Shown: positions 2,808 through 37,235 of the stretch, one piece after another | Layout of the letters: every line of letters starts with the position of its first letter | How positions within the stretch are numbered: the stretch's first letter is position 1 | DNA from: Sesamum alatum | Lineage: Eukaryota; Streptophyta; Magnoliopsida; Lamiales; Pedaliaceae | NCBI GenBank assembly: GCA_034509735.1 | Contig: JACGWO010000003.1 | Span: 5,208,001-5,272,000, forward strand | Direction of reading: 5' to 3' | DNA length: 64,000 bases | Position numbers and translations under genes: made by a program | Notes under the pieces: generated by a model | Database searches by the model: none | What the model saw: the letters and a program-made list of their open reading frames with translations, nothing else | What the model was told of the DNA's origin: nothing

Positions 2808-3735
2808 TGTAAATAAATTTTCGTGTTCCTGAATTTAACGAAATACGAAAATATTACAAATGAATTCTTGAATTGAATTGAATATTTGTGGGTGCGAAAC
2901 CTCTATTTGAAACCTCTGATTCTTCTCTTCAAGAACGTGAGCTTTGACTTCGACAACTTCGAAGCTGAAAACTCAATGTTTGATCTCCTTTTATGTTGAC
3001 TTTGACTTTGAATAACGTTAATTCGGGGGTCGTTGACTTGTTCTCGGATCAAACGCTATGAATTTGAAGATATTTGACTTGAATTTGAGATATTTCTTGG
3101 TGGATTTGAGACTTTGATCTTCCGCCAAGGTGGACTTCTGTCTTGATAACGTTAATTCGCCGATCTTCGGACTTCTTGTCGAATCAAACGCTGAATTTTA
3201 GACGATTTCCACAACGAACGCCTTGAATCTTTCCTAGAATGCCACGGATCTTCCTTGATTTGCTTGAGAGGATTTCGGGACTTCTTGAATGCTCTCTTCG
3301 GTTGTATGTGTGTGTGTTGAATGAGTTCCCATGACCCCTTAATATAGCTGTCAAAGAGGTAGAGTTGTGGTGAACTTGAACACTTATTTTGTATTATCCC
3401 CTTATTTTAATTTAAAGAGATAAATACATTAAATATTTGGGAAGACATGATTGGTCAATTTCAATATTATCTCTTTGATTTTTGTATTGTTTTAAAGAGA
3501 TAATATGAGAAATATTTGTCTTTGATTTGATTGGCCGGAACACCTCAATTTGACACGTGTCGACCGTTGATTTGATGACGAAATATATATTAAATATCAA
3601 TTAATTTAACTATTTATATTTAGAATTAATTTGGTAAATTCCAAATTATAAATAGAAAAATAGAATATAATTGATAAATAATATATATTTTCCACTTGTC
3701 GTCATTTGATTGGGTGCAAAAATAATTTGTCTACA
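2808..3735 (-). repeat. Gypsy 3' LTR (complete, 928 bp)
   Basis: TG...CA bounded and nearly identical at its ends to the right LTR (14216-14434 and 16549-16827). It is the 3' LTR because pol lies to the right on the minus strand and a polypurine tract abuts it at 3736. Bases 3025-3456 have no counterpart in the right LTR, where a copia LTR replaces them. Confidence 0.88.
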
Positions 3736-3750
3736 AATGCCCCCTCGAGA
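3736..3750 (-). other. Gypsy polypurine tract
   Basis: On the minus strand TCTCGAGGGGGCATT lies immediately before the LTR terminus TGTAGACAAA, the expected position for the plus-strand primer of reverse transcription. Confidence 0.75.
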
Positions 3751-4219
3751 CTCGTTCACGAGTGTATACTTGGAAATGTAATTTTCAAAGTGAATGAGTC
3801 GCGAAAATATAAAATCGAATTCGAATAGGCCACCCTCATCGTATCACGGGCCACCAATTTAATTGATACCAAATTTGGGCCCATAATATGTGTTTGATAT
3901 TTGGGCTTTATTGATAAGCCCACACAAGATCTTTTTTTCTTGTTCAAACATGAGAAAATCTTTTCAGAGCAATCAAACAATGCCCATTTCGCTGGTCGAA
4001 GTCGTCATCTTTCGGAAAATTGAAGTAGCATACAGAATGTAAAATCTGAATCCTCCTTGGCTTCTGATTTGTAAAAGGCATCTAAATTGGTTAAAATTCT
4101 GGTAGGTGACGAAATTGGTTAGTGTTCCAATTCCACCAGAATTAGGCTATTCGAATTTGATTGCAATTGGGACTACAGACCACCTTATTTATTCGAACTA
4201 GAAATCTGAAATTGATATC
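3751..4219 (+). promoter_or_regulatory. Upstream region of the antisense cargo gene
   Basis: Non-coding stretch between the 3' LTR/polypurine tract and the TATA box at 4220. No conserved retrotransposon domain or convincing ORF is seen. By position it would be the promoter region of the plus-strand gene and at the same time the 3' untranslated tail of the element's own transcript. I see no recognisable cis element apart from the TATA box that follows. Confidence 0.4.
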
Positions 4220-4227
4220 TATATAAG
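4220..4227 (+). promoter_or_regulatory. Putative TATA box of the antisense plant mobile domain gene
   Basis: TATATAAG within ATCTATATAAGGAGC is a strong plant TATA match. It precedes a transcribed-looking segment with GT/AG intron signals and an ATG about 1 kb downstream, all on the plus strand. Start of transcription would be near 4250. This is inferred from sequence only. Confidence 0.55.
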
Positions 4228-4249
4228 GAGCTTAAATCTGCTCGAATAC

Positions 4250-5238
4250 GACAATGTTAATTTGGGATTTTTGAGGTATGTTCCAATAGCCGAATATTTT
4301 TTCCTTCTTCTATTTTCTGGTATGTCCACAAACTGTTTGTCGTAATGCCTCAATGATATTTTTTTTCAGAAATTTCAGTTCGTTGAGAAGCTTTCGGCTC
4401 GACGACGAGACTTCAACTTCAATTCCTTCTTGAATTTCAACCCGCTTGTCACGGTAATATTTCCAGCTTGACATTTAATTTTTTTTTGCTCATCGTGTAC
4501 AAGAATGACAAGGTTGTTCGTGCTCGACCCTTTGTTTATTCAGTTTCTTGCTTACTTTGATTGAGATTGTTGATATGCTTTTGTGGTTTTGTATGAATTA
4601 TTGCTTAGTTCTAGCATCAAAACTTTTCCTTCACAATCTTGATTCTCGATTTTGGGACGTATGTACGAGAGTATTTGACCAATAGCTCATGATTATTTCG
4701 ACTACACTATTCGAATCAAACGTGCACTGCTTCAATTAAATCATGAGGTTCAATCCTGTACACTTCAGTTGTATTGCTCTGCTTCAATTATAGGAGATTG
4801 ATTTTGCTGACATATGATTTCCCCTGACAGTGCCTAATTCCAATTTGAAAGCTATTATGTCAACTTTGTTATCCAAGTAAATTCACTTTGCTTGATTTAA
4901 ATCCAAGTGAAATTTGACAAATTTGTTATCGGTATTGATTTGGACTTGTCAAATATTGATTTAAGTCCAATATTGTCAAATACATCAAATATTGTCAAAT
5001 TTGTCCAATATTGATTTAAATCCAAGTAGAAATTTGTTATCCGTCTTGATTTGGGTGCAATAATTAATCCATCGAATAAGCTCGGGTACATACTTGGGAT
5101 GACCATATTGATTTAGAGTTGTCAAATATTTTTGAAGAGCTTGTAATCTCCTCAAACATTTTTTCCTTGGTTTATTTGAGTTTTTTTTTTTTTTTAAAAC
5201 TCAATTGAACTGTTTGCTCGTGCTTGGTAGGTTGTAAC
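4250..5238 (+). other. Putative spliced 5' UTR of the cargo gene (two introns)
   Basis: Candidate intron 1 has donor GAG|GTATGT (GT at 4276) and acceptor TTTTTTCAG (AG at 4368-4369). Candidate intron 2 has donor ACG|GTAATA (GT at 4454) and acceptor TTGGTAG (AG at 5229-5230). Exon 3 would start at 5231, eight bases before the ATG at 5239. The long second intron is AT-rich, with locally repeated TTGATTTAAATCCAAG / TATTGTCAAAT words at 4890-5110. No coding potential is seen. Splice sites are predicted by eye. Confidence 0.5.
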
Positions 5239-8086
5239 ATGGTTTACTTCAAAGACGATTCGTTTTCCTCCGATCAACAAAACTTAGTAATTCTTGACGA
5301 TGAAAGTCAATCCATGGAGAAAGGGACAGTTTTGACGACTCACACACCTCTCATTGGACGGTATGCGAAGCAATGACCAAGGTTGACGACTCCACTTCAC
5401 ACGGAACAATGGTGTCGAGAAGTCTCATTGAGCAAGACTTCCAAGGCGTGGTCTCTACAAGCGACTCATCACCGTTGTTCTGACGAACCAAGCTCTCTAG
5501 CGACGTTGGGCCGCCGCATCATTAAATGGAAAGCCAAGTGGGGCGACAACGTTCACTTTGCCGGTGAATTCCGCTTCATCAAAGGGTTTTGGGAGTAGAC
5601 GGAAGACGTACTTAGCCGGTGCAAAGACAAACTAGTCGCGGCCCAAGTATATGATGCCTTATATGCCTCACTATTTACCTACGACCGCAATTCCGATATC
5701 ATCAAGGCGTTTTGCGAAGTGTGGTGCCCATCTACCAACACTCTTCTGACGTCTTTTGGAGAATTGTCTATTTCGTTGTGAGACGTGCACACCCTTTCTG
5801 GACTTCCTATGGCGGGACTTCTTTATGACGAAGTTGTTCCAAGTGCCAAGGAGCTTAACGAGGTTGACGAGACAGGACGGAGACTTGTGCCTCATTCTTG
5901 CAAGTTCCTACTCCACGCCTACCATTTGCTTCGAAAGAGTAATAAAGATGGCCATTCCTCTCAAGTTCCTATTGACAACTGGGTCAAGTTTTGGCTTAGA
6001 AGGGCGACGAAATACTGCGAGCCTCCTCCACATAAAGAGAAGAAGGCCGTTTGTCCTAAGTCAACTCCTAACCCCTCCGGGACCGTTGGGGTACATGGCA
6101 AGTGGTCCACGGCGGACGAGGCATTGTTCTCGAGGCTTGGTATTGAAGGGAGTTCAAAGGAAGAAACATTCTTGGCGGCATACTTGGCGTGTTGGCTTTG
6201 TACTTTTGTCCTTCCCACTCAAGATGCTGGTTCAATGCGCCCAAGTGTTTTCAAGGTGGCAAGTGCTATGGCAGCCGGTCGTAGGATTGGTCTTGCAGTT
6301 CCTGTCTTGGCTAGTATTTACAGAGGTTTGAATAAGATTTCCGACTCCGCAAGGCCAACTCGCGTACACTCTCCATTTCCAATTCATTTTGTTTATAGTT
6401 GGATAGCTTATTATTTCAAGACTCACTATCAACTTGTGCAAAGCATTCGTGGGCCCAAGATGACACTCTTTTCAGGCGAAGGAGGCACAAAGTACTACGA
6501 TCCGCAAGAGGCGAGAAAGCGGCTACACAGAGGCGACTTTATTTCTTGGACTTGCAACATGATTATGAGGGACAAATATTTTTTTATTCACAGACGAAGG
6601 GCATGCCAAAGAATCTGAAGAAATCTATTTCATGGCCGTCCTTTCGAACTACCTTCCTTTGCGGCAAGGCGATCATTTCGTTGTTGAGCCTTGTAGCCCT
6701 CATCGATTTAGTCGTCAATTTGGTTTCTTCCAAGAAGTTCCGGGGATTCTTTCGCAAGATGTTCGTGAAGCTTCTTTAGAGGGTGGAATCCGTTATTGGC
6801 GCATGTGCGTTTCTGTCCAAGATTATGGAAAAGGTGGTGTTCCCTCCCATGCCCCCAAATATGAAGAAGTTCTCCTCCGAGGCGTACAAAAGGTGGTGGC
6901 TTGGAGTTCACGATGGCTACTTTGAAGAAAACGTGACGAAGTTACTTGCTTTGGGCCCAAGTCAAGCTTCTTCAAAAGGCAAGCAGTTCGGTGAAAGAGT
7001 CGCCCAAGATCAACCTCGTGAGCCGGCTATTTCCTCTCCCAAGCAAAATTCTCAAGTGGTTGAACCCTTTGAAGTAGATAAGAAGCGAAGTGCTCCTCGT
7101 TTCTTGAAAGTAAGTGGGAGTAACAACCCTGATCGTCATTGGAAGAGGCCGAAGAGGGACTCGAAACCAATAAACATCGACGTTGTTGATGAAGGCTAGA
7201 GTCATGGACCATCGATGTTGAACTTTGTCAAGGAGGTTAATTTTTTTTTTTTTTTATCCCTCTTCTTCTTCCTTTTTCTTTGTTTTTGGTGATAAGATTC
7301 TCTCTTGTTTCTAACTTTGGTTGATGCGTCATCATAGCTCGAAGCTGAGGTCTTAGCCGTTGAAGACGATGAAACTTCTCACGACAGTCAAGCGTTGACT
7401 TTATTAGCTACAACTTGTCCTCTTGGAATGGGGCTTAAGAGGAAACAACCCTCCTACCCAACCGTTGTGTCGGTATTTGAAGACGAGAGGTTTTTTCTTA
7501 ATCATCAAAAGGAGTTCCTTCAGAAGCTGTGGAGTAATCTTCTCGTGAAGATATCAAACACCCCAATTGATTTCATCTCATCAATCGAAGACGACGTTTA
7601 CTTTGTTCTTGAGTCTATGAAGAGTTTTCAAAATTTTGATATCTCAAACGTGGAAGAATCAATGAATGATTGTTTGCCAAGGCTGCTGCTTATGATGAGG
7701 CGAGGTCGTCGTCTTCTGAAAGGTTATCCAAAGATCTTTTCGACTGAAAGTTGAAGGAAGCCAACGATCGTCTTCAAGAAGCCCGTGCTAAAGAAAGTGG
7801 GGGAGCTTCCAAGGTCCAATCCACTACGGACGAGTTGAAGCGTGTTGAGAAGGAGCTTTTGGATTTGAAAGAGCGCAAGAAGAACCTGTGTGCCACTCTG
7901 AAAGAAGAAAATCAGCTTTTCCATAGTGCCCAAGTTGGAGTTCGTGAAATTGTGGAGGAAATTGCAGCACATGAGAATACTACCCCCCTTAATGATGAAG
8001 TAGTTGCGAGTTTGGAGAGGGGAGGGCCGTTCACAGTTTATACTCATGCGGGCCAGGAGTGTTTTTTTTTTCTTTCTTATTTTTGA
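5239..8086 (+). pseudogene. Plant mobile domain (PMD) protein gene carried antisense in the gypsy element, broken
   Basis: One frame runs from ATG 5239 to about 6590 and is interrupted by TGA 5374, TAG 5596 and TGA 5779. It shifts frame in a T-run near 6580-6588 and again near 6840. It then crosses a GT-AG intron at 7236-7337 and ends with a coiled-coil-rich part at 7751-8086. Recognisable PMD motifs are SFGELSISL (about 5755-5778), HTLSGLPMAGLLYDEVVPS (5788 on), CWLCTFVLP (about 6190), VLASIYRGLN (about 6305) and HRFSRQFGF (about 6697). A basic, nuclear-signal-like patch HWKRPKRDSKP lies near 7138-7170. A TAG at about 7197 is a further block. PMD proteins of the MAIN/MAIL1 type are known plant nuclear proteins involved in silencing and meristem maintenance, and related domains occur in transposons. 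The role in this element is unknown. Orientation is opposite to gag-pol, and the gene ends facing pol at 8139. Confidence 0.82.
7236..7337 (+). other. Putative 102-bp intron in the cargo gene
   Basis: Donor GAG|GTTAAT at 7236, a long pyrimidine/T tract, and acceptor CATCATAG ending at 7337. Joining the flanks keeps frame: the acidic segment ending ...NFVKE continues as LEAEVLAVEDDE. Predicted from sequence only. Confidence 0.55.
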
Positions 8087-8138
8087 GTTTTTTTTTTGTT
8101 TCTTCTTTTTGTTTTTTTTTTTCTTTTTGTTTTTTTTT
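8050..8138. other. T-rich spacer between convergent cargo gene and pol
   Basis: Runs of T broken by C and G separate the last codons of the plus-strand cargo gene from the integrase stop on the minus strand. It may be where both transcripts end, but no polyadenylation signal is convincing. Confidence 0.4.
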
Positions 8139-9508
8139 TCAGGCGTAATACCGCTTCAAGAACTTTCCATTTATCGGGCCTATCCTCAAGCCGTCTTCAG
8201 CAACCAGCTTATATGCCCCATTTGTGTAGACTTCTTTAACAACATACGGACCATCCCATTTTGACAAGAACTTGTTTCCCGTTCGATGCGTTGTGATTAT
8301 AGGCCTTCTCACTGCGAGTACTAGATCACCGACTTGAAAAGAGCGAAGGCGGACCTTCTTATTGAATGCTTTGGATAGTCAGGCTTGATAACACTCGAGC
8401 CTTTGTTGTGCTTCCAACTTCTTCTCATCGAGAGCTTCTAGCTCTTAAAGCCGTATTAGAGCGTTTTCTTCTTCAGTAAGCCCTTCTTGTATCGCCATCC
8501 TCAATGAAGGGATTTGTTGCTCAAGTGGGAGGATTGCCTCAACTCCATAAACCAGGGCATAAGGAGTTGCTTGCATAGGCGTTCTGACAGTGGTTCTATA
8601 TGCCCATAGAGCTTTTCCAGTTCTCTCGTGCCAATCCCGTTCTGACTTGGTCACTACTTTCTTCAATAGGCTGCACAAAGTTTGTTAAAAGCTTGAGCAA
8701 AGCCATTGGCAGCGGCATAGTACATAGAAGAGTTTCTCTGTTTGAATGCAAACTTCTGACACAATTTGTGTATCAAGCTGTTACAGAAGGGTTTGTCATT
8801 ATCAGTGATGATATACCTGGGCACTCCGTAGCGATTTGTGATGTGTGTACGGATGAAATAAGCAACATTCTCTTTCTTCACTTCTTTGAGGGGGACTACT
8901 TCAGCCCATTTAGAGAAGTCGTCAGTTGCCGCCAAGATATATAAGTGACCACCGGAGGACTTTGTCATGGGTCCTACGACATCCAAACCCCAAGCATCGA
9001 AGGGCCATGAAGCTACAGTAGGGTGTAATGGCTCGGGTGGTTGGTGGATAAAATTGGTGTGAATTTGACAGGCTTGACATCTCCGTGCATAGTCCATGCA
9101 ATCTTTAACCATTGTGGGCCAATAATAACCCATTCTTTTAATACGAAAGTGTAGCTTTGGTCCAGATTGGTGCGCACCACAAACTCCAGAGTGAGCTTCT
9201 TCCATAGCTTGCATTTGCTCATCATCGTTTAGGCAGCGTAAGAAAATACCATCAAATGAATATCTGTAGAGCGTGTCTTTGAAGTAGATGAAGCGAGACG
9301 CCCGCCGCCGAATTTCAGCCCTTCGTCGTATGTCGTCGGGTAACTTCTTGTACTTCAAGTAATCAACGAGTGGTTGTCGCCAATCTTCCCCTTCAATTTC
9401 GAAAACCTCCATGACATGATTTTCTTCTTCTTGGAATGTGTCATCCTCATCATCTGAAGACCGGTGGTATGACCCAATTCTTACATATCGGTATGCGCAT
9501 CTCCTCAT
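8139..9508 (-). pseudogene. int: Gypsy integrase (pol C-terminal part), frameshifted
   Basis: Reads from 9508 to a TGA at 8139-8141. The N-terminal zinc-binding domain shows AHQSG...HFRIKRMGYYWP with RRCQACQ. The core shows WGLDVVGP (first Asp) and YIITDNDKPF (second Asp). The frame changes near 8670, after which ERTGKALWAYRTT and PYALVYG continue. The C-terminal domain near 8410-8150 contains GDLVLAVRRP and KWDGPYVVKEVYTNGAYKL. Integrase last in pol is the gypsy order. This domain would join the cDNA to target DNA; here frameshifts at about 8670 and 8440-8400 block a full protein. Confidence 0.85.
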
Positions 9509-9917
9509 TGGTCATCGAGAGGGTTGAAGCGAGCTTGGCCAATGCATTAGCTTGTTTATTATCCTTTCTTGACAGGTGCTCAAGTTCTACATCTCCTAGC
9601 CATCCTACCAGCCTTCTTGCGTAGTTATAGTATGGAAGCAACTCAGGCTTTTTGACTTCATAGAGATCGAGGAGCTGATTAATCACTAACTGAGAGTCTC
9701 TGTATACTTTCAAGTGTCGTTGCTTTATGTCCACTGCCATTTCCAATCCGAGGATTAAAGCTTGATATTCCGCCATATTATTTGAATAGTTCTGGGTTAA
9801 AGTGAAGGAATAAGGCAGGACTTCCCCTTCAGACATGACAAAGACAACTCCAAGCCCGGCTCCTTCTCTATGGGCAGCTCCATCAAAGTACATTTTCCAG
9901 GGGGGGCGTAGCTTCAA
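9450..9917 (-). pseudogene. Second (archaeal-type) RNase H domain of the gypsy pol
   Basis: Begins WKMYFDGAAHREGAG, followed by NMAEYQALILGLE, YRDSQLVINQL and RKDNKQANALAKLAS. These supply the D-E-D-D acidic residues of RNase H. An extra RNase H of this kind between the classical RNase H and integrase is the known marker of the Tat clade. It is in a different frame from the domains on both sides (it overlaps them in the frames as they stand), so single-base indels separate it from the polyprotein. The domain itself looks intact. Confidence 0.85.
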
Positions 9918-10387
9918 TCAGAAGGACATCCTTGTCCGGCAAGTCATTAGACAATTCCCACTCGGCAGGCATGGGGTGATCGGCTAGAAAGTCTGCTAAA
10001 ACTTGTCCCTTCACAGCCTTTTGAGGAACGTATGTGATCACGAATTCTTGTAGATGAAGATACCATCTTGCGAGTCTATCTGATAGCACTGGCTTTTGCC
10101 ATGACATATTTCAGAGGGTTTGCTTTTGAGACTAAGTGAACACTGTGTGATTGAAAGTAATGTTTCAGCTTCTGGATTGCGAAGATGAGCGCCAAACATA
10201 GCTTTTCGATGGGTGAATAATTGAGCTCATTTGGTGTCATCGTTCTGTTTAAATAGTATAAAGCATTCTCTTTCCCCTCGTTATTTTTCTGGGCAAGTAA
10301 GATTCCCACGAAGCGGTCGTGAGCAGCGACGTACAGAATTAAGGGGCGTCCGGGGACGGGTGCAACCAACACCGGAGGCTTCATCAA
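9883..10387 (-). pseudogene. Gypsy RNase H (first, RT-linked), in two frames
   Basis: The first frame (10387-10076) holds PLILYVAAHDRFVGILLAQ and YLNRTMTPNELNYSPIEKL. The second (10107-9883) holds LARWYLHLQEFVITYVPQKAVKG and LADFLADHP. This is the RNase H-like tether downstream of a gypsy RT. Frame changes at about 10090 and 9900 break it. Confidence 0.82.
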
Positions 10388-11294
10388 GTAGGATTTTTAT
10401 GCTTCTGAACGCTTTATCACAAGTCTCATCCCATTCGAAGGGCACATCTTTCTTCATTAGGCGACTGAATGGTTGACAATGGCCAGCTAGAGTGGAAATG
10501 AATCTCCGAAGATACGCGAGCTTTCCTTGCAAACTCTTGAGCTCATGGACATTCCTAGGTTCTGGCATTCTCAAAATGGCATCAATCTTAGCTTGCTCAA
10601 TCTCTATACCCCGTTGACGAACGATGAACCCAAGGAATTTTTCGGATGTAACTCCGAATGCACACTTGGAGGGATTCATCTTTAGTTGGTATCTTCTCAA
10701 ACGTTCAAAAACCTTTCTTAAGTCATGAAGATGATCCTCTCGTTTCTTTGACTTCACGACCAAATCATCAACGTAGCATTCTACATTCTTGTGGAGCATG
10801 TCGTCGAAGATCTTTTGCATCGCCTTTTGATATGTGGCGCCGGCGTTCTTTAATCCGAAAGGCATGACTTTGTAGCAATATATACCTTTAGGAGTGCGAA
10901 ATGTTATCAATTCCTCATCCGCTGGTGCCATACGTATTTGGTTATATCCGGACGATCCATCCATGAAAGATAGGGCTTCATGACCCATAGTGGTGTCTAT
11001 CATTAACTCGGCGATAGGTAATGGGAAGTCGTCCTTGGGACATGCGTTATTCAAGTCCTTGAAGTCAACACATACTCGTATCTGCCCATTCTTCTTCCTC
11101 ACGGGCACGATGCTAGAGATCCACGTAGGATACTTGACTTCTCGAATAAAACAAACTTCAATAAGTTTGTTTACCTCACATTCAATTATTGGGATTAGCT
11201 CAGGTCGAAACCTAGTTTGAGCTTGTTTGACAGGACGAGCCCCCTTCTTTACGGATAAGTGGTGCACAGCTACTTTTGGATCTAGCTCGGGCAT
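10281..11294 (-). pseudogene. Gypsy reverse transcriptase
   Basis: Longest intact pol frame. It contains RVCVDFKDLNNACPKDDFPLP, FMDGSSGYNQIRMA, YCYKVMPFGLKNAGATYQ and the catalytic CYVDDLVVKS, then the connection segment MNPSKCAFGV and KFLGFIV. Palm and thumb motifs are complete to about residue 300, then the frame slips near 10390 and runs on as noise. The enzyme would copy element RNA into DNA in virus-like particles. The sequence is typical of Tat-lineage RT. Start codon is unassigned because this is part of a polyprotein. Confidence 0.9.
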
Positions 11295-12290
11295 TTCTTT
11301 GTAGGACCATGCAAATACGTCTTTATACTCATGGAGTAGCGCGACGTAAGCCTTATCTTCTTCCGGGGTTAGAGAAGCACTTGTGTAAATTGGCCGGGAT
11401 CTTTGGCATCACCTAGATTGACTTCTTTCAACTCGTCAACGGTGGTTGTAATGCCTTCCTCAAGTTCTAGAGGAACGTCTTCAGCATCTTCTTCTTCAAC
11501 CTCTTCATTTTCGATTAAGGTGATGTGATAGGCTAGGGCGATATCTTCTTCAGCACTGTCGTCAATATAATTGGATGATGCAACGCTTTCTCTGTCATCC
11601 TCATCATCAAGTTGAACTTGTGTAAAGATCATTGTTCTTGTTTTAACTTTCAAGACTCTGCCACATGATATGTCTAGAGTTGTGTGGCGTCTCATTCTGG
11701 AAGGGACCAAACTTCTAAGTTTATGTGAGGATGTGATGTTCCTTTGATTGTCCAGCCACCTTGGACATGGCTTTCTTTTGGTTCATCATTCTTTTCTGTG
11801 GACCAAGTCTATCAAAGACAGATTAATTGTTGGTCCTTCTATGCACCAGTCTTTTACGTGGGCCGAGTGTATTGAAGACAGACTCCCGTGGATTTTCTTT
11901 CCTTTGATCATCTTCTGTTGAAGAGAGACTTTCACTGACATAGTTGCTGCTGGCCCTTTTTATGGTTATGCGGATAGGCTTAGGAGGGATAAAGCCAAGA
12001 CCCACACGTGAATCTGGGACTGCATGCCCTTTTTCTTTTAACATCACTTGGTTGGCGTTGAGTCCATGGAGCTTCTTTGCCGGTGGCTTCCGGAGGAAGT
12101 TTTCCAAGGGCTAATCTTTCTTGTGGATTATACCCGGCTTTAACAAGTAATTTGAAGGCTTTAGGATCATACCCTTCTCCGTCTATAGCCAACGTTTCAT
12201 GTCCCTCTTCTTCTTTTTGGGTTGAGGACACAAATCCTTCGAGTGGCGGTTTTGATGGTTGCTTCGCGTTGACTTGAGTCAATGGTAAAG
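11295..12290 (-). pseudogene. Gypsy pol linker between protease and RT
   Basis: Acidic, low-complexity minus-strand frames (for example 11710-11369, rich in E and D, with NYIDDSAEEDIALAYHITLIE). No named domain is seen. It lies between protease and RT as a spacer of the kind found in Tat polyproteins. Several frame changes are present. Confidence 0.6.
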
Positions 12291-13149
12291 TCAGACTCTT
12301 TGAAAATCCGGCCTTGACAACGGGCTGCTCTTTCTCCTCATGCTTCCATCGTCATGTGACCTTGGTTTCTCAGAGGGTAAAATCTCTTTTCCTCTTTTGG
12401 CAGTTTCAACGTAGTACTTGGCATCGGCGAAGTGCGACTCAGCTTCGATAAAAGGCTTGGTATCACCGAGTACCCTTTTCTTTTTTTTTTTTTTTGATTT
12501 GGTAGATTCATAATTAAAACCGAGTACCCTTTTCACTATACCATTGCGGCAGTATTTGATGCATTGATGCCATGTTGAGGGGACCACAAAATTTTCATGC
12601 AACCAAGGGCGGCCAAGAAGCATGTTGTAAGAAGTCTTTGGCGTCTTTAACATGGAATAGTGTGGTTGACGCCATATCGTCCATCAACAATTCCATCCTG
12701 ATAATGCCGACAACCCTCTGTCCTCCTTGATTGAAGCCTTGAATCATCAGGCGGCTGTTTGCGAGTTCGTCCATCGGGATCCCCAAGTCTCTCAAGGTTC
12801 GTAGGGGTAAGATATTGACTGCAGAGCCTCCATCAATCAATATTCTATTCACCTTTTGTTCGCGTGCATATCCAGCAACGAACAAGGGGTGGTTATGGGG
12901 TTTTGACCCAAGAAGCAAATCTTCGTCGGTAAAGGTAATGGTGGACATGCATTCATCGCTATCAGAGGAATCTTCTTTTTTAGACAGAGCGTCCTCTTTG
13001 ATCGCAGTAGCATTCTCGTGTGTGGTGTTGTAGGAGGCTTCACTGTTGAAAGACCCACATTTGACCGAGGTCACGTTTGCTGCTGCGGTATCTTCTCCAA
13101 GAGAGATCTTGCCTTGGCAAGCTAATTGCATAACCTTGTCTTTGAACAC
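12291..13149 (-). pseudogene. Gypsy aspartic protease region, two frames
   Basis: The first frame (13149-12595) has PLFVAGYAREQKVNRILIDG followed by GSAVNILP. The active site is D-G-G in place of the commoner D-T/S-G; I recall D-G-G from plant gypsy elements. The second frame (12653-12291) continues TSYNMLLGRPWLHE and STWHQCIKY, typical protease C-terminal sequence. The frame slips at about 12640. A lysine run arises from a T homopolymer at 12480-12495. Confidence 0.8.
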
Positions 13150-14145
13150 AAAGAAATCTTGTATCGAATGCCCAACTAAACGATGGTACTTGCAATATTT
13201 TGGGTCATCTGTTCGTTCGACTTCTTCAGGTCATTTCGCTTCGGGTAGTTCGATGAGGTTAGCCTCCAAAAAGTCATCAAATATTCCGGGGACATCGGAA
13301 ACAAAGAAAGGATATTGTTTTGCTTGCATTTCCTTCAAAGTTAGCTTTCTTTGTAGTCTTTCGTAAGGCGCATTTTGCTTCGGGGCAATGCTGTCTTTTT
13401 GCTGCGCTCCTAAGCTTGAGTGGCGCTACATTCACTGCCATCGATTCCTTGCTTGGAGGTTTTGAAAAGGGTTTGCCCCCTTTCTTGATTTATTGCCTTT
13501 CCTTGGTTCTGCGGGGCTCTTGAACAGGTGGTCCTTCTACTCCACTTGCTGCCATACTTAACTCCATGTCATGTGCTCGAGTGGCCAAATCTTCGAATGA
13601 TCTAGGTAGGATTCCTTGAAAAATATACAGAAGACCCCAATGCATCCCTTGAATACACATCTCAATGGCGGAAGGTTCAGATAATCGGTCTTTGCAGTTG
13701 AGGCTCAACTTGTTTTCCCTGAGCATGGCTTGTCTCAACGTTGTCCAGCTTGTTGATCAACCTGGCGATTTGGGCATCTTGCTCTTGGACATGCTTGGCG
13801 AGTCCCTCGATAGCTCTTGTCAGGCTTGCAATTTGCTCTTCTAAGGTGGTGGCATTCGTCACCATGACTGGGGTCACATTCGTTGCGAAGGAGTAGCTAG
13901 ACAAGGTGCAAGGAGAGGACGGAGGAGATTTATCTTCGTCATCTTCGCCATCTTCGCTTTGCATGGTTAGGAACGAATGTGTCCTTCTGAGCAGACTCAA
14001 TTGGAGGAGTCATCTGGGAAGATTCCTTAAGTTTCTTCGACATGCTCCTCGTAGTAACACTGAGACTCTTGGTACTTGAACTTGAAGACTTCGTTGTGGC
14101 GAGTTTGGAATTCACCGTCTTCATGACTTTTCCTTGAGTGTCCAT
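13150..14145 (-). pseudogene. gag: Gypsy gag, internally deleted and frameshifted
   Basis: The N-terminal frame 14145-13939 starts MDTQGKVMK and is Ser/Lys rich. The next frame (14000-13677) has an acidic stretch and a heptad-like segment (LEEQIASLTRAIEGLAKHV). The next (13738-13490) has LSLNCKDRLSEPSAIEMCIQ and LATRAHDMEL, typical of plant gypsy gag. Sequence normally lying between these last two parts is missing at about 13740. Near 13200-13130 there is YCKYHRLVGHSIQDFFVFKD, a Cys/His motif in which an expected Cys reads Phe. Gag would form the capsid; this copy cannot. Confidence 0.78.
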
Positions 14146-14190
14146 TGAGATACTTCAGACTTTGTTGAAGGGAAGAGATGAGAGGTAGAG

Positions 14191-14215
14191 CGGTCCCACT
14201 GGGCGTGCCAAAATT
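14191..14215 (-). other. Gypsy primer-binding site region
   Basis: Directly inside the 5' LTR terminus the minus strand reads AATTTTGGCACGCCCAGTGGG. Position and the leading TGGC are right for a tRNA primer site. I cannot name the tRNA from sequence alone. Confidence 0.55.
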
Positions 14216-16827
14216 TGTAAACAAATTTTCGTGTTCCTGAATTTAACGAAATACGAAAATATTATAAATGAATTCTTGAATTGAATTGAATATTTGTGGG
14301 TGCGAAACCTCTATTTGAAACCTCTGATTCTTCTCTTCAAAGAACGTGAGCTTTGACTTCCGTAACTGCGCAGGTGAAAACTCAATGTTTTGATCTCCTT
14401 TTACGTTGACTTTGACTTTGAATAACGTTAATTCCGTAACCGGGCGTTCTATGTAGGATGTGTAAATATTGGAAATGAATATTAAACACATAGGGCATAG
14501 ATAAATATATATAATCAATGAAAGCGTAATAAACCGTTACCTTTGATTGTTTAGCGTATGCTCCCGGCTACTTGCGTTGTTCCTTCTCCGGAATGCTCAC
14601 GAAATCCAAACGTATGGATTCTCCAAAGGTGATCCACACCATACCGGAAGAAACACACGTTCTTCTTGCTAGAAAAGAACGGGTTTAAGAAGGAATCGGT
14701 TTAAGAGAAGAATACTATGAATTAGTGCTCTCTTAAACTTACTTTGTTCTTCTTCTTGATTCAAAATCAAGTGAAGAACACAAGTGTAAGAGAGGGAGAG
14801 AGGCCGAGAGTTTGAGAGAGAGTAGAGGATTTTTTTCTTCTCTTTTTCCTAGAAAAAGATGAATAATGAATCACCCATGCTTGGTGTTGTATTTTCTAAT
14901 ATATATACATAATTAATGTGATTATTGGAATGTGTCTAGGTTCATCCAAACATTTCTAGATTCATTCCAATCAATCACCATCAATTCTTCAATCAAGCCT
15001 ACCAAAATTTATGATATGATCAAATCATACCAAAAGGGAAGAGCTTGATTGGAGTTGATTTGTCTCTTTCCAAAAGAGATAAATCAACATACCACCTAGC
15101 ATGAAACATGGCTGATTTTGCTTCCTCCAAGGGAGCATGTCGGCCATGTTTAATTAAGGGAAGAAGTCCAACTTCTTTCTATTCCAAAATAAGAATTATT
15201 TCTCCTCTCGGGTATAATTTAACGGACCGGGTTTTATCGTAATCCAATTACGACGAATCCAATATTAAATCCAATTTAATGTTCATTTAAATTATTCCCG
15301 TTGATCTTTTAATCTAATTAAAAGATCCAACGCCTCAACGTCTCAACTTTCCATATTTAATCGAAAATTCAATTTACCGATTTAACGAAAGCCCGATACA
15401 ATATCGTCCCGTCCATCCAATGGAGTTTCCCTTAAGTAATCCAATTACTTATTTTATCCTTCGAGATTGACTCCAAGTCGATCTCTCAACCTCCTCGGTG
15501 ATTTGTGTGTGACCCTTTAGGCTCACCCTCAGCTAGACTTAGGCCCGTGTCCCACAAGGGCCCGTTACCATGGGTGGCCGTCTAGCAGCGGTCCATGGCA
15601 CTAGAGACTAGGTGAATTGGCGTGAACATTTAGGCGCCGATTCCGTACGGGTACGATCCTTCCGTCAACCGTCTCCCGGCCTTAGTCTAGGGTATGGAAT
15701 TGGGCGTCGGTTCCCATCCTTGACTAGGCATCTATGCTTAATACTCGAGACCACGTATGCTTCATTGCGTCGATACAAGAAACCATTCCCTGTTCGACCA
15801 ACCACTATGGCCACAGCTTCAAACAGCATGAACGTGTCTCCGAGTGCATAGGAGATACCTCTGTCACATACTGACATGGGACGGATCCTCTTCTTGGAAT
15901 CTACCGTCCTCGCTACACATTCCGACTGCACTGGACAAGGCTTATAATAATCATCTTACAGAATGATTACCTCTCGCCAGATCCAAGATACAGCCGTCAT
16001 GTGCACGCGACTGCCATGATCCCTCAAGTCAGAGGATTACTCCCGTACTATCGGAACCGGGGAAAACCAATCATACCGACCAAGCCTCCAAGGCTTCCAT
16101 ATGATGATCCCCGCGAGTCAGTCCAGTCAGCTCGACCCCAGTCGACCAACCCATCAAGATCGTGTAGGTGTCCCATGCCTGTCGCCGATGAAACACGGCA
16201 CCCATCCAATGAACACGACTCTTGACGCAAGTCTCAATAGGACTCTCGATGCCCTGTCTCGAGGTCCTCAACTTGGAATGTTTCAGACCCAACTCTTAAT
16301 CAGTTGGTTTCATGACCACTATCCAATGCGTGGCCCAACTGCACGAGTTGTTATCCATGGTCTGTGGGCTTTGTTGCAATATAAGTTAAACACCGTTTTA
16401 ACAAATGTAAGATGAGCGCAACAAAGAAGGTGCCATTGGTGACGAATACTCATCTTATTCATCACATAATAATATTACATTTACATCAAGTCGTCAGATA
16501 GGTTACAAATCGCCAAACATATTGGCTTTCCGGTCACCTATTCTAACAAATTTAGATATTATCTCTTTGATTTTTGTATTTTTTTAAAGAGATGATATGA
16601 GAAATATTTGTCTTTGATTTGATTGGCCGGAACACCTCAATTTGACACGTGTCGACCGTTGATTTGATGACGAAATATATATTAAATATCAATTAATTTA
16701 ATGATTTATATTTAGAATTAATTTGCTAAATGCCAAATTATAAATAGAAAAATAGAATATAATTGATAAATAATATATATTTTTCACTTGTTGTCATTTG
16801 ATTGGGCGCAAAAATAATTTGTCTACA
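14216..16827 (-). repeat. Gypsy 5' LTR, interrupted by a copia LTR
   Basis: LTR pieces 14216-14434 and 16549-16827 match the two ends of the left LTR (2808-3024 and about 3457-3735). The middle, about 430 bp in the left copy, is absent and a copia LTR takes its place. Right terminus CTACA is at 16827, followed by the duplication ACATA. Confidence 0.83.
14435..16548 (-). repeat. Copia family A LTR inside the gypsy 5' LTR (solo-like, one end truncated)
   Basis: The intact LTR start (complement ...CCTATTCTAACA) is at 16548. The other end breaks off at about 14438 (AACCGGGCGTTC), short of the final U5 bases seen at 56153-56270. It aligns throughout with the LTR at 56153-58390, including both stem-loop CCATGG words. 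No target duplication exists, because the insertion is associated with loss of about 430 bp of gypsy LTR. Open frames at 15612-15851 and 16101-16415 are LTR sequence repeated elsewhere, not genes. Confidence 0.82.
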
Positions 16828-16968: not shown

Positions 16969-17548
16969 TGAAAGAAATTGTGGATCGTCCCGGAAAAAGC
17001 GCGAATACGGAAGCGCGGTATAATTAAAATTAAATATGGAATTTAAACATGCTTTAAAATTAAAACACGTTTCAAAGGATGTGCCTTTGAAATTTCCCGG
17101 GCGTTCGGTGTATCTCATGAACGAATAACACAAAATAAATCATGGAGGCCATAGGGTTGGAAATTAAAGAGAGGACGAAAAATTAAAACGAGACCTACCC
17201 GTTGTCGTTTTCGACTTCAACGGCTACAAGCGTTGTTCCCCGTTTTGCACCAAGATCTCGTCTTTGAGACCCTCTAAATCGTGACACACGATCCACCCAC
17301 GTATCTTGCACGTCGTGCTAGCAACGAACAAGTTTATGTTTTTGGAGTGGATGAATCAATAACACATTATTGATTAATGGTATTGATTCATCAAGTTCTT
17401 AATGTTCCAAGAACAAAAAAGAACCAAGAAAAATATTTTCTTGGAGAGGGAGAGAGAATCGGACGAGAGAGAGGGAGAGAGAATCCGTGTGTGTGTTGGA
17501 GTGTGTGTGTTGGAGTTTCATCATCCTTCAACTTGTAGGATGCTAGGG

Positions 17549-17561
17549 GTTTATATAGAAG
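17549..17561 (-). promoter_or_regulatory. TATA box of family B 3' LTR
   Basis: Minus strand TTCTATATAAACC, a good plant TATA match in the expected part of an LTR. The same element stands at 25341-25353 in the 5' LTR, and CTATATATAG at 54323-54332 in the plus-strand B copy. Confidence 0.6.
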
Positions 17562-17604
17562 AGGAGTCTAATCCTCTTTAAACTCCTCTTTCAAGAACTC
17601 TATT

Positions 17605-17675
17605 TTGACTAGGATTTTGACCTAGTCAAAGTCCTAGTCAAAGTAGTGTTTTGACCTAGTCAAAACAATCCTAGC
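17605..17675 (-). promoter_or_regulatory. W-box array upstream of the family B TATA box
   Basis: Six TTGAC cores in both orientations within about 70 bp, arranged as palindromic pairs (TTTGACCTAGTCAAA). TTGAC(C/T) is the known binding core of WRKY transcription factors. The array lies about 45-115 bp upstream of the TATA box on the minus strand. The 5' LTR copy (25395-25447) has one repeat fewer. Confidence 0.5.
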
Positions 17676-18895
17676 CATCCATCTCTCCCATTCATCTCAC
17701 CGTTGATTTAATTTAATTTAATGGAATATTTAAAACCTATTTAAATATTCCAAGAGGGTAAAATAAATATAAATATTATTTAAGCCCATTAAATAAATCC
17801 CTTTGATAAATCTAATTTATCAATTTAATTCCTTATATCTAATAGAAGGAATTATTTCTCCAAGAAAAAAATAAAGGACCCGATTAAATCCAATTTAATC
17901 ATTCCTTCACTCCAATATTTAATTCCTAATTAAATATCTAAATGTGTGTGGATAGTGTGTGACTCTTTAGGTTCACCTTTCAGCTAGACTTGGTCGGATT
18001 CCTAGAATCCTTCCGTTACCATGGGTGGCCATCTAGCAACGGTCCATGGCACTAGAGACTAGGTGAAATATTCAGGGATGAACATTAGGCTCTAACAGTA
18101 CACTTGTCCTTCTGTCTTCGGTCTCATCACTTAGAGTCTAGGGCACGGATAATGCAGGTACCCATTTTGGACCTAAGTGTCGGTCTGTCCTCACTAAACG
18201 CCGCAAGGGAATCCTTCCCTTCTGTTCAGTTACTGTGGCCACAGATTTTAGGGACAAGACACAGAGCATACATGAGACTCAACTGTCAATACCTATTGGC
18301 AGGAGACAGATCCTTTCTTGGAAACTACTGTCACTTTGTACACCAGAACTGTACTAGACATGGCTTATGACTACCAAAGAGAATTCTGGCAATCTCTCAC
18401 CATATCTAAGATACAGCCCTAACGTACAGGTAAACTGAGCAATTCCTCAAGTCAAAGGACTTGGCCTGTACCGTTGGAACCGGGAATACACGTCATACCT
18501 TGCTGACCATACTCAAGGTCCTCCGTAAGACGGTTCCCGCGAGTCACCTCAGTCAGCTGCGTCCTAGCATGCTAACCCACTAACACTGCTTAGACGACCC
18601 TCGTCACCCGTCGATGAAACACGACAGCAGGTGCTTAGTGCAAGTCTCAAATGGAATCCCGGTACCCATTTTCGGGATTCCTTGACTTGGAGATTTCCGG
18701 ACTGATTCGGGAAGACTGATTCCATGGACCTACCTCCAAGCGTAGTCCCAGTCCCCGAAATTGATTCTCAGTCCGTGGGCTTTGTTTGCGTAGTGAACAG
18801 ATATGGAAAACAAATATAAGTGAACACAAACAAAGTGATGGCAAATGAAATTCACTTCTTTATTCATTAATGATTTATCAAACACCTGAAATTGT

Positions 18896-19951
18896 CTAGA
18901 CATAGGTTACATATTCCTGCCAAAATTGGCTTACATGGTCACCTATTCTAACAATCTCCCACTTGACCTTTAAAAGCCAATCACCCATATGCCTAATCCC
19001 CATCTTCTCAAGATGTTGCGTATGAGCACTCTGCGACATAGGCTTTGTCAGCGGGTCTGCTGTGTTGTCTGCTGAGTTGACTCGGTCCATCCGAACGTCA
19101 CCTCTTCCTACCATTTCTCTAAGAAGATGGTAGCGTCTAAGAATGTGTTTGGAACGGTGATGAGATCTCGGTTCCTTTGCTTGCGCTAGTGCACCGTTGT
19201 TATCACAGAAGATGACAACAGGCTCGGCGATGCTAGGCACCACACCCAACTCTTGGATGTAGTTTCTCATCCAAACCGCTTCCTTAGCAGCTTCTGAAGC
19301 TGCTATGTATTCAGCCTCAGTGGTGGAGTCAGCAGTGGTTGCTTGCTTGGAACTTTTCCAAGCCACTACTCCTCCGTTGAGTTTGAATACATACCCCGAT
19401 TGAGACTTGGCATCATCGTCATCAGACTGGAAGCTAGCGTCGCTAAAGCCTTCCAGAATTAGTTCTCCATTGCCATAGACCAAGAACATTTCCTTAGTCC
19501 TCCTAAGGTACTTAAGGATGCCCTTAACAGCATTCCAATGTGCCTCTCCTGCATAGGACTGATATCTGCTTGTCACGCTCAAAGCGTATGCAATGTCAGG
19601 CCTGGTGCAATGGACTGCATATTGGATGCTACCTACGGCAGAAGCATAGGGGATGACTTTCATCTTTTCAAGTTCCTCATCAGTCTGCGGGGACTGCTTC
19701 TTGGACAACTTGATCCCATGCCTCATTGGAAGGAATCCTCGTTTGGAGTTGTCCATTCGATATCTCTTTAGGACTTTCTCCATATACGAGTTTCCGGTGA
19801 GCCCTAACATCCTTTTAGATCTGTCCCTGACAATCTGGATGCCTAGGATGTAGGAGGCTTCACCCAAGTCCTTCATGGAAAACTTGGTTGACAACCATGC
19901 TTTTGTGTTTCCTAACATTCTGACGTCATTAACCAATGAGCAGAATGTCAT
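18896..19951 (-). pseudogene. Family B RT C-terminal part and RNase H
   Basis: Continues RT after a frame slip: TKAWLSTKFSMKDLGEASYI and YTKRYRMD-like thumb sequence, then GSIQYAVHCTRPDIAYALS. The RNase H domain has [51 protein letters not shown] and HHRSKHI, giving the D-E-D acidic set. The frame stays open through ADPLTKPMS to the end of pol, then across the polypurine tract and 58 bp into the 3' LTR before stopping at 18896. RNase H degrades the RNA strand during reverse transcription. Confidence 0.85.
18954..18968 (-). other. Family B polypurine tract
   Basis: Minus strand GGTCAAGTGGGAGAT directly before the LTR start TGTTAGAATAGG. The same tract precedes the family A 3' LTR (58391-58405) and, decayed, the relic LTR at 32304. 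It overlaps the pol reading frame. Confidence 0.8.
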
Positions 19952-20963
19952 CCACGTAAAGCACTAGGAACACTATAGAGCTCCCACTGACCTTCTTGTA
20001 TACACAAGGGTCGGATTCGTTTTTGATGAAGTCATATCCCCGTATTACTTCATCAAATCGAATGTTCCAACTTCGGGATGCTTGTTTGAAGCCATAGATG
20101 GACTTCTGGAGACGACAGACCTTCTGTTCTTCTCCAGTGACCGTGAAACCCTCCGGCTGATCCATATAGATCTCTTCTTCAACGAAACCGTTGAGGAAGG
20201 CCGTTTTCACGTCCATCTGCCATATTTCATAGTCATACCATGCTGCTATGGCAAGCAGGATCCGAATGGACTTAGCCATGGCTACTGGCGAGTAGGTATC
20301 CTCAAAATTGACCCCGGGTCGTTGAGTGTATCCCTTAGCTACAAGCCTAGCCTTAAAGGTTGTGACTTCTCCATCAACGCCGAGTTTGCGCTTGTAGACC
20401 CACTTACAGCCCACTGGCTTAACACCTTTCGGTGGATCTACAAGTCTCCAAACTTGGTTCTCGCTCATGGAGTCCATTTCGGTCTTCATGGCCTCAAGCC
20501 ATTTCCCGGAGTCGATGTCAGACATCGCTTCCCCGTATGTCTTAGGATCGTTATCCAGAAGATCGATCGCACCTAGAAACCCATATCTCACTGGAGGCCT
20601 GGATTCTCTAGTGGACCTACGGAGGACGGGAACGTCAGTGGTGACTGTGGGCGCTGACTGTATCGGAGCCGGCGGTTCAGGGGCCGGGACTGGCCTTTCT
20701 TGAGGTTGTCCTTCATGCCTAGCATGTTGGACTTCTCTAGGTTGGTCAGCCCTCCGTGCGTTAATCCTAAATCCTTTTGGTGAGGTTTCCGCGGCTATTT
20801 CTGATGGCTGAGTTCCATCACTTGATTCCTCAAGGATCAGCTCATCAGGTTGGATATCCTCCGGGAAGCCTTGCTCCAAGAATACTGCATTCCTTGAAAC
20901 AAATACTTTTTTGTTCCAAAGGGTCATAAAAGTAATAACCCGCAGTTTCTCTAGGGTATCCAA
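19929..20963 (-). pseudogene. Family B reverse transcriptase
   Basis: After a Pro-rich linker (PVPAPEPPAPIQS) and GEAMSDIDSGKWLEAMKTEM, the RT begins at VDPPKGVKPVGCKWVYKRKL. Copia landmarks follow: KARLVAKGYTQRPGVNFEDT, WQMDVKTAFLNGFVEEEIYM, SIYGFKQASRSWNIRFDEVI and the catalytic LYVDDILLIG. The frame ends directly after that motif because of a small indel, and the next frame (19951 leftward) carries on. Apart from this break the domain is complete. Confidence 0.88.
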
Positions 20964-21633
20964 CGAACCTGCATAGGCTAGACCTGGATTCTAGCTTATC
21001 TCCCACTAACCTCTTGACGTATGCGGGGCTACCCCACACTTTCAAGTAATTGTAGGACGCAGGCTTGCCGTGCCATATCTCATATAGCGTTGGGTCAATG
21101 CACTGGTAGGCGCCAAATTCAACAACTTGGCTGCCGTTTCTAATGCATAACCCCAAAACGATAAGGGCAATTTTGGTAAAACTCATCATGGACCGAACCA
21201 TGTCCAACAGGGTTCGGTTCCTCCTTTCAGAGACGCCATTTAACTGTGGTGTTCCGGGAGGTGTCCATTCTGATATTATACCATGTTCTTTTAGATAATC
21301 AAGGAATTCGGCACTAAGGTATTCACCACCTCGGTCTGACCGTAGGACTTTAATTTTGCAGTTGGTCTGGTTCTCCACTTCAAGTCTGAATTCTTTAAAC
21401 CTCTCAAGAGCTTCAGACTTGTACCTCATTAGGTAAACATAACCATACCGTGAATGATCATCGGTGAAGGTTATGAAGTAGGAGAACCCACCTCGAGCCT
21501 GCGTCCTTAGTGGTCCACATACGTCTGTATGGACCAAGTCCAACAGACCCGTGGCAAGCCTGCTTTGACCTACAAAGGGCTTCTTGGTCATTTTCCCTCT
21601 TAGACAAGATTCACAAGTTGGTAGATCGCTCAA
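20845..21633 (-). pseudogene. int: Family B integrase
   Basis: Has LPTCESCLRGKMTKKPF (end of the zinc-binding part), HTDVCGPL (first Asp), FTDDHSRYGYVYL (second Asp), LRSDRGGEYLS, and NGVSERRNRTLLDMVRSMM with the catalytic Glu: the copia D,D(35)E set. A stretch between about 21170 and 21080 reads as scrambled sequence from two compensating frameshifts, then YEIWHGKPASYNYLKVWG returns. The frame is lost at a T-run near 20910. Confidence 0.87.
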
Positions 21634-24783: not shown

Positions 24784-26735
24784 CCGGAAAAAGCGCGAAT
24801 GCGGAAGCGCGGTATAATTAAAATTAAATATGGAATTTAAACATGCTTTTAAATTAAAACACGTTTCAAAGGGTGTGCCTTTGAAATTTCCCGGGCGTTC
24901 GGTGTATCTCATGAACGAATAACACAAAATAAATCATGGAGGCCATAGGGTTGGAAATTAAAAAGAGGACGAAAAATTAAAACGAGACCTACCCGTTGTC
25001 GTTTTCGTCTTCAACGGCTACAAGCGTTGTTCCCCGTTTTGCACCAAGATCTCGTCTTTGAGACCCTCTAAATCGTGACACACGATCCACCCACGTATCT
25101 TGCACGTCGTGCTAGCAACGAACAAGTTTATGTTTTTGGAGTGGATGAATCAATAACACATTATTGATTAATGGTATTGATTCATCAAGTTCTTAATGTT
25201 CCAAGAACAAAAAGAACCAAGAAAATATTTCTTGGAGAGGGAGAGAGAATCGGACGAGAGAGAGGGAGAGAGAATCCGTGTGTGTGTGTTGGAGTGTGTG
25301 TGTTGGAGTTTCATCATCCTTCAACTTGTAGGATGCTAGGGGTTTATATAGAAGAGGAGTCTAATCCTCTTTAAACTCCTCTTTCAAGAACTCTATTTTG
25401 ACTAGGATTTTGACCTAGTCAAAGTAGTGTTTTGACCTAGTCAAAACAATCCTAGCCATCCATCTCTCCCATTCATCTCACCGTTGATTTAATTTAATTT
25501 AATGGAATATTTAAAACCTATTTAAATATTTCCAAGAGGTTAAAATAAATATAAATATTATTTAAGCCCATTAAATAAATCCCTTTGATAAATCTAATTT
25601 ATCAATTTAATTCCTTATATCTAATAGAAGGAATTATTTCTCCAAGAAAAAATAAAGGACCCGATTAAATCCAATTTAATCATTCCTTCACTCCAATATT
25701 TAATTCCTAATTAAATATCTAAATGTGTGTGGATAGTGTGTGACTCTTTAGGTTCACCTTTCAGCTAGACTTGGTCGGATTCCTAGAATCCTTCTGTTAC
25801 CATGGGTGGCCATCTAGCAACGGTCCATGGCACTAGAGACTAGGTGAAATATTCAGGGATGAACATTTAGGCTCTAACAGTACACTTGTCCTTCTGTCTT
25901 CGGTCTCATCACTTAGAGTCTAGGGCACGGATAATGCAGGTACCCATTTTGGACCTAAGTGTCGGTCTGTCCTCACTAAACGCCGCAAGGGAATCCTTCC
26001 CTTCTGTTCAGTTACTGTGGCCACAGATTTTAGGGACAAGACACCGAGCATACATGAGACTCAACTGTCAATACCTATTGGCAGGAGACAGATCCTTTCT
26101 TGGAAACTACTGTCACTTTGTACACCAGAACTGTACTAGACATGGCTTATGACTACCAAAGAGAATTCTGGCAATCTCTCACCATATCTAAGATACAGCC
26201 CTAACGTACAAGTAAACTGAGCAATTCCTCAAGTCAAAGGACTTGGCCTGTACCGTTGGAACCGGGAATACACGTCATACCTTGCTGACCATACTCAAGG
26301 TCCTCCGTAAGACGGTTCCCGCGAGTCACCTCAGTCAGCTGCGTCCTAGCATGCTAACCCACTAACACTGCTTAGACGACCCTCGTCACCCGTCGATGAA
26401 ACACGACAGCAGGTGCTTAGTGCAAGTCTCAAATGGAATCCCGGTACCCATTTTCGGGATTCCTTGACTTGGAGATTTCCAGACTGATTCGGGAAGACTG
26501 ATTCCATGGACCTACCTCCAAGCGTAGTCCCAGTCCCCGAAATTGATTCTCAGTCCGTGGGCTTTGTTTGCGTAGTGAACAGATATGGAAAACAAATATA
26601 AGTGAACACAAACAAAGTGATGCCAAATGAAATTCACTTCTTTATTCATTAATGATTTATCAAACACCTGAAATTGCCTAGACATAGGTTACATATTCCT
26701 GCCAAAATTGGCTTACATGGTCACCTATTCTAACA
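24784..26735 (-). repeat. Family B 5' LTR, lacking its last about 20 bp
   Basis: Matches the 3' LTR nearly base for base from CCGGAAAAAGCGCG to the terminus at 26735. The terminal U5 bases and PBS are missing. Relative to the 3' LTR it lacks one AAAGTCCTAGTC repeat in the W-box array. TATA box at 25341-25353. Confidence 0.87.
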
Positions 26736-36719: not shown

Positions 36720-37235
36720 AAAAAGAATTCGCAGGGGTTTGAACCTATTACCTCCAAGAATATTTATTATAACAAAAAATTCGCAGGGGTTCGAACTCAT
36801 GATGTCTAGGAATATATATTATAATAAAAAGAATTTACAGGGGCTCGAACTCATGACCTCTAGGGGTATTTATTATAATAAAAGGAATTCGCAGGGGTTC
36901 GAACTCATGACGTTTAAGAATATTTATTATAACAAAAAGAATTCGCAGGGTTCGAACCCATGACCTCTAGGAATATTTATTATAATAAAAGAAATTCGCA
37001 AAGGTTCAAACTCATGACGTATAGAAATATTTATTATAATAAAAAGAGTTCGAAGGGGTTCAAACCCATGACCTTTAAAAATATTTATTATGATAAAAAG
37101 AATTCGCAGGGGTTCGAACTTATGACCTCTAGAAATATTTATTATAATAATAAGTATTCGTAGGGGTTCGAACCCATGACTTTTAGGAATATATATTATA
37201 ATAAAAAGAATTCATAAGGTCGAACCCTTGATCTT
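36720..37235 (+). repeat. Minisatellite, about 10 units of about 53 bp
   Basis: Units centre on GGGGTTCGAACTCATGACCT and A(G/A)GAATATTTATTATAAT, at about 36736, 36787, 36840, 36894, 36948, 37004, 37057, 37111, 37164 and 37215. Units diverge by point changes. A related single unit precedes the array at about 36207-36255. The frames open across it are a by-product of the repeat. Each unit carries GGTTCGAAC, close to the tRNA-gene B-box core. Confidence 0.85.

Follow-up and report, generated by a model that had tools for sequence, protein, structure and literature searches.

Why should a plant retrotransposon carry, on the strand opposite to its own genes, a gene for a domain that it has in common with silencing proteins of the host? 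The question is raised by a Ty3/gypsy element in a stretch of 64,000 nucleotides from Sesamum alatum (assembly GCA_034509735.1, contig JACGWO010000003.1, positions 5,208,001 to 5,272,000), hereafter the window. The integrase and pol genes of this element lie on the minus strand, and between them and the 3' long terminal repeat (LTR) a plus-strand gene for a plant mobile domain (PMD) protein is placed head-on against pol. We consider it probable that this is an antisense accessory gene of a Tat-clade family, that it is under selection and transcribed by RNA polymerase II, that its product is a nuclear protein acting in trans, and that its promoter region is a cassette exchanged between elements. 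The initial annotation of the locus had described the gene as cargo with its own TATA box and introns, perhaps an effector against host silencing; its observation is confirmed, and its interpretation is partly supported.

In plants, the host proteins MAIN and MAIL1 mark out a silencing pathway whose mechanism is unclear, and they have their domain in common with Gypsy elements. Gypsy-borne PMDs, antisense extra open reading frames (ORFs) in Tat-clade elements and the guess that transposon-encoded PMDs counteract silencing (PMC8616336) are already in print; here and below, papers are cited for the sections covered. What PMDs do in transposons becomes a testable question when a Gypsy PMD gene shows measurable selection, has open copies and exists with many natural versions of its promoter.

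An antisense PMD gene with signs of purifying selection

The PMD profile PF10536 matches the window at 5782-6615 with an E-value of 2.2e-12 and 47.3 bits, above the curated Pfam cut-off of 34.9, and on the strand opposite to pol, which bears out the annotated antisense position; a second piece at 6569-6922 (E 8.5e-4, 19 bits) is under the cut-off. Three-frame translation from the ATG at 5239 reveals several frameshifts and in-frame stops, and therefore the window copy as it stands cannot make the whole protein.

In the genome, 485 candidate places were found for the PMD stretch (5782-6925). Forty were scored, all of them close to full length; besides the window itself they comprise 39 further copies with 93-96% identity to it. 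Ten of these 39 were compared as pieces of 3.9 or 5.3 kb, together with five upstream pieces and eight more cassette pieces. Integrase is antisense to the PMD in four of the five relatives whose sequence reached far enough. One of the ten relatives has both coding exons open; in each of the nine others, at least one exon carries an interruption. The gene of the open relative encodes about 912 residues, with the PMD, a basic patch that is common to the window protein and the Sesamum relatives, and a coiled-coil-like tail; its exon A covers profile positions 2-346 of 347 (E 1.4e-34, 120.2 bits).

The ratio of nonsynonymous to synonymous divergence (dN/dS) averages 0.33 over 912 codons of 11 copies, with a range of 0.21-0.65 among 55 pairs that are not independent, codons with stops or gaps being left out. 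This is well below the value near 1 that had been named beforehand as refuting. The mean dS of the coding part is 0.11. Variants found in at least two copies fall on third codon positions in 85 of 139 cases, and singletons in 173 of 425 (chi-square p 4e-5). The coding sequences of the antisense PMD gene bear the mark of purifying selection, and such a pattern is expected if selection for the protein acts on element lineages and the copies, once inserted, decay. That the gene is a captured fragment without function, passively carried along, was already disfavoured and is very improbable: broken reading frames in the window copy and in nine of ten relatives would suit it, but the selection signature, the full-length PMD match of the open relative, the conserved signals described below and full-length homologs in other plant families speak against it. 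A chance ORF or a passive host fragment was likewise rejected on dN/dS, the conservation of the TATA box and donor, and the PMD match of the open relative.

In one relative, L030, reverse transcriptase and most of integrase are seemingly lost and the antisense PMD gene is kept, a pattern that fits a role in trans or a passive remnant.

A hypervariable cassette upstream of the coding part

The upstream region, core promoter, 5' untranslated region (UTR) exons 1 and 2 and introns 1 and 2 make up a cassette of about 1.4 kb. Seventeen cassettes, four of them read over only about 1.06 kb, fall into 14 clusters at 70% coverage; L036 and L051, where the ATG pattern found no match, were excluded from the clustering. 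In three relatives with other cassette types (L031, L034 and L035), the match to the window comprises the LTR and about 80 nt beyond, at 91-94% identity, and ends at 3811-3821. It runs on to 4173 in L030 (86.9%), and to 4191 and beyond in L029, which has the window's own type (90.6%). The LTR can be aligned among relatives at about 91-95%, the coding segments from 5240 on are 89-97% identical to the window in ten relatives, and intron 3 shows 83-97% identity. By sequence comparison, the pace of change in the cassette is far above that elsewhere in the element.

In eight copies of other types, identity is 79-87% over the first 142 coding nucleotides and 93-96% over the rest of exon A; the corresponding values are 94-97% and 96% in two copies of the window's type. 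This step points to a recombination edge near codon 50, within the beginning of the coding sequence. Most plausibly, the cassette is exchanged between elements by template switching, and lineages would thereby change the expression of the accessory gene. It is rather doubtful that the differences have instead accumulated by ordinary rapid drift and indels in DNA that is free of constraint and belongs to old lineages. Small mosaic patches of about 66-95% identity, common to different cassette types, are compatible with drift, and so is the hypervariable 3' region described in Tat elements (Macas 2009 as cited in PMC7004042), but the low mean dS of the coding part, the good alignment of the LTR and intron 3 of the same elements, and the rise of identity within the coding start speak against it. 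Tandem repeats were rejected as the cause of the variability: the cassettes hold few of them, and the four of 17 that contain a short array, one each, keep the promoter and splice sites. The Tat 3' region is similar in changing fast and in being flanked by pol and the 3' LTR, but it consists of tandem repeats. The U3 subfamilies of Tnt1 likewise combine a constant coding region with a swapped or diverged regulatory module (PMC1838419). However, it is the LTR that varies in Tnt1, whereas in the sesame element the LTR is conserved and the promoter of the antisense gene varies. If exchange of the cassette is true, regulatory diversification of retrotransposons extends beyond the LTR.

The window's cassette occurs at full or near-full length at three places in the genome, the other rows being partial (50 rows; 40 of 143 candidates scored). 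A cassette match lies at most 4 kb away in ten of the top 40 PMD copies, and 32 of the 42 cassette matches compared (the best 42 of 50) are near none of these 40. Comparison of the cassettes with 28 other loci and with the window beyond 17 kb gave no match. Such cassette-like matches with no top-40 PMD copy nearby, among them one of 94% at G000:C77:22797193-22797745, may be element copies or source loci.

Promoter and splice signals persist between cassette types

The GT and AG ends of all three introns are literally present in the window. A pattern picked after the sequences had been seen, TATAWA followed 30-85 nt on by GGTA[ATG][GT], is found in 12 of 14 cassette types on the gene's strand and in one of 14 on the reverse strand; 500 shuffles gave it in a mean of 0.36 and a maximum of 3 of 14 types. 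It is absent in L050 and in L038, the latter covered only to about 1.06 kb upstream. When the 13 types without L038 are aligned, TATATAA, the donor GGTATG, a motif within intron 1 and the exon-2 donor are each seen in most rows, not all. The ATG was located by pattern in 17 of 19 copies, all of which have the TAG acceptor just 5' of it.

Intron 3 is present in all 11 copies, the one deviating donor being GC. It has 24.5 indels per kb per copy, a rate that includes slippage in T runs, and exons A and B have 1.9 and 3.3, respectively. Among the matches listed (120 of 437), 64 homologous proteins with new identifiers and at least 700 residues were available, these database entries being probably mostly gene predictions. 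A region related to exon B is found in 60 of them, and the exon A-B junction is at the same place, within one residue, in 18.

Taken over the copies, a TATA-type core promoter, two 5'UTR introns and one coding intron are supported as features kept by the gene family. The annotated TATA box at 4220 and three introns are upheld by conservation between copies with differing surroundings, and the coding intron also by homologous proteins. RNA polymerase II would transcribe the antisense gene independently of the LTR. The introns are not spliced out of the genomic RNA because they lie on the opposite strand, and they would persist since the replicating RNA is that other strand. The earlier proposal that introns survive owing to antisense orientation is thus logically sound and consistent with the data, intron 3 being retained in all 11 copies compared.

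The function might reside in the antisense transcript itself, through double-stranded RNA or transcriptional interference, with the protein being of little weight. Such a possibility has been raised for antisense ORFs (PMC7264820), and a conserved promoter would serve it too. However, the constraint acts at the protein level, as seen in the dN/dS of 0.33, the third-position bias and conservation across asterid families, and the splice sites are kept, so that a function of the transcript alone appears improbable.

Relationship to other PMD proteins

A tree of 35 rows was built from the window PMD, the open relative and 16 database proteins, together with 11 MAIN-type rows and six other PMDs of the genome. 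A branch with 100/100 support parts 18 rows, including the window PMD, from the MAIN-type rows and the six other PMDs; the 16 database rows were chosen by similarity, with their location in elements unchecked, and the sequences of Ikeda et al. are not among them. The element PMD sits among proteins of the PMD family from other asterids and from Rosaceae, apart from host MAIN, and full-length homologs show that the protein is conserved across asterid families. This grouping is in line with the Gypsy-only clades PMD-A1 and PMD-A2 (Ikeda et al. 2017, PMC5418596), and a branch of the host's own MAIN was rejected, the element PMD being outside the MAIN group. Of the cargo idea, the antisense gene itself stands, and recent capture from the host, if this was implied, is not favoured. 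PMD-A1 and PMD-A2 are likewise Gypsy-encoded and apart from MAIN/MAIL; gene strand, introns and promoter are not described in the sections covered of that paper. MAIN and MAIL1 share PF10536 with the element protein, but they are encoded by genes of the host and occupy another part of the tree (PMC5418596, PMC7156037).

The first 20 PMD loci, ranked by Pfam, were set aside as not belonging to the element's family: tblastn against pieces of the window gave one weak PMD match and reverse transcriptase in two others. One of these loci is host MAIN, with a 716-codon frame 100% identical to the Sesamum alatum protein MAINTENANCE OF MERISTEMS. In three others (L020, L022 and L024), the PMD gene has as its neighbour a MULE transposase encoded on the other strand (PF10551, seen in three of ten proteins scanned); MULE PMDs have been described as fusions in grasses and Amborella (PMC5418596). 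Neither a search of viral contigs nor a PDB sequence search gave a match. An AlphaFold model of a Nicotiana relative is weak (pLDDT 59.8, pTM 0.65).

Possible action of the antisense protein

A nuclear, trans-acting role is likely, judging from homology to MAIN/MAIL1, the shared basic patch and the nuclear location of a protein of maize Grande (PMC7264820). The most plausible target of the protein would be the host PMD pathway (MAIN/MAIL1-PP7L); the chromatin of the element itself is the other candidate. The protein may oppose the host pathway, redirect it or only resemble it. A serious alternative, to which we give somewhat less than even weight, is that the protein serves the element's own cycle, in nuclear import, choice of integration site or chromatin and transcription of its own copies, and leaves host silencing untouched. 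A regulatory effect on retrotransposition has been proposed for other Tat-clade antisense ORFs, and the protein of Grande is located in the nucleus (PMC7264820, PMC11963269); the basic patch common to relatives points the same way, and purifying selection fits equally. Against it stands the domain, which is that of host silencing proteins and hence points to their pathway, a weak argument since the tree distance is great. A bolder extension is that lineages with constant LTR and pol, carrying an antisense nuclear effector, compete over when, where and how the PMD protein is expressed, for anti-silencing or self-regulation, by rapidly exchanging the promoter and first introns; the regulatory arms race would then be fought over the antisense promoter instead of the LTR. 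This we regard as rather unlikely.

Related systems place the gene in context. PMDs occur in extra ORFs of 57% of Ogre elements (Neumann et al. 2019, PMC6317226), which are similar to the sesame element in this and in having a second RNase H between RNase H and integrase. However, the Ogre surveys were based on counts of ORFs that run without interruption for 250 codons or more, whereas the sesame gene is multi-exon, and the window element has little room for an ORF before gag. Uninterrupted-ORF surveys can overlook the exon structure of such genes. Retand, maize Grande and rice RIRE2 resemble the sesame element in that the interval separating pol from the 3' LTR contains ORFs in antisense orientation (PMC11963269, PMC7264820). 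Antisense ORFs occur in the Retand clusters studied, with TRP28 in 97% of clusters (Vicient 2025, PMC11963269), and Grande gene23 has its own promoter (PMC7264820). These ORFs, however, mostly carry TRP28 (PF04195) and not a PMD; no Pfam match to TRP28 was found in the antisense pieces of the window or in the open exon A of one relative. The word "intron" does not occur in the main text of Vicient and Casacuberta (2020, PMC7264820), whereas the sesame gene has introns. A search of open-licence literature found in print neither a supported multi-exon structure of such a gene nor a hypervariable cassette with persisting core promoter and splice sites beside an alignable LTR and PMD coding part.

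Several points weigh against the reading that we prefer. The function rests on homology, and no activity of PF10536 was found in the literature covered. Transcription and splicing of the antisense gene are predictions from sequence. Most sampled copies are broken, the dN/dS pairs overlap, and singletons too lean to third positions (41%, above one third, p 0.0017). Because cassette types share small patches, the 14 types in the promoter comparison are not independent of one another, and some of the cassette divergence may be due to drift. The tree tool warned of long branches meeting, and a structure search with the Nicotiana model gave no match reaching E 0.001.

Structure and age of the element

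The features are collected in Table 1. Both LTRs have TG..CA ends. A second, archaeal-type RNase H between RNase H and integrase distinguishes the Tat clade (PMC6317226), which includes Ogre and Retand, and RVT_3 is found in the window between the reverse transcriptase and integrase pieces. The pol of the window is broken, and the window copy is a decayed insertion. The Kimura two-parameter divergence of the LTRs is 0.052 over two comparable blocks (25 differences in 503 sites; BLAST identities 94.6 and 96.1%), block edges adding a few false differences. With assumed rates of 1.3e-8 and 7e-9, the insertion would be about 2.0-3.7 million years old.

Table 1 Features of the element and its antisense PMD gene (positions in the window)
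Feature	Position	Strand	Basis
Tat-clade Ty3/gypsy LTR retrotransposon	2808..16827	-	LTR match, target duplication ACATA on each side, Pfam domains
3' LTR	2808..3735	-	LTR comparison
Hypervariable cassette	3820..5230	+	Copy comparison
TATA box (TATATAA)	4220..4226	+	Read in sequence; kept between cassette types
Intron 1 (5'UTR), GT-AG	4276..4369	+	Donor and internal motif conserved
Intron 2 (5'UTR)	4454..5230	+	Donor conserved in most types; acceptor TAG before ATG in 17/17 copies
Coding exon A (ATG, PMD, basic patch), broken in window copy	5239..7235	+	Pfam, translation, copy comparison
PMD matches, two frames	5782..6925	+	PF10536
Intron 3 (coding, phase 0)	7236..7337	+	GT 10/11, AG 10/11 copies; junction in homologous proteins
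Coding exon B (coiled-coil-like tail), broken in window copy, end uncertain here	7338..8086	+	Pfam, translation, copy comparison
Integrase (H2C2, rve)	8666..9511	-	Pfam, E 4.1e-10 and 2.6e-11
Second RNase H (RVT_3), between reverse transcriptase and integrase	9453..9917	-	Pfam, E 1.5e-19
Reverse transcriptase piece (RVT_1)	10284..11408	-	Pfam, E 7.3e-33
5' LTR, interrupted by insertion or replacement at about 14437-16548	14216..16827	-	LTR comparison

The stretch at 14437-16548, inserted into the 5' LTR or replacing part of it, has kin at 56478-58366 and, inverted, at 47289-48596. Outside the element, direct repeats at 16990-18384 and 24784-26166, with pieces 98-100% identical and about 7.8 kb apart, enclose copia-like ORFs at 18896-20990; from the motif, we take this to be probably a young copia element. 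A tandem array with a 54-nt unit is located at 36720-37273.

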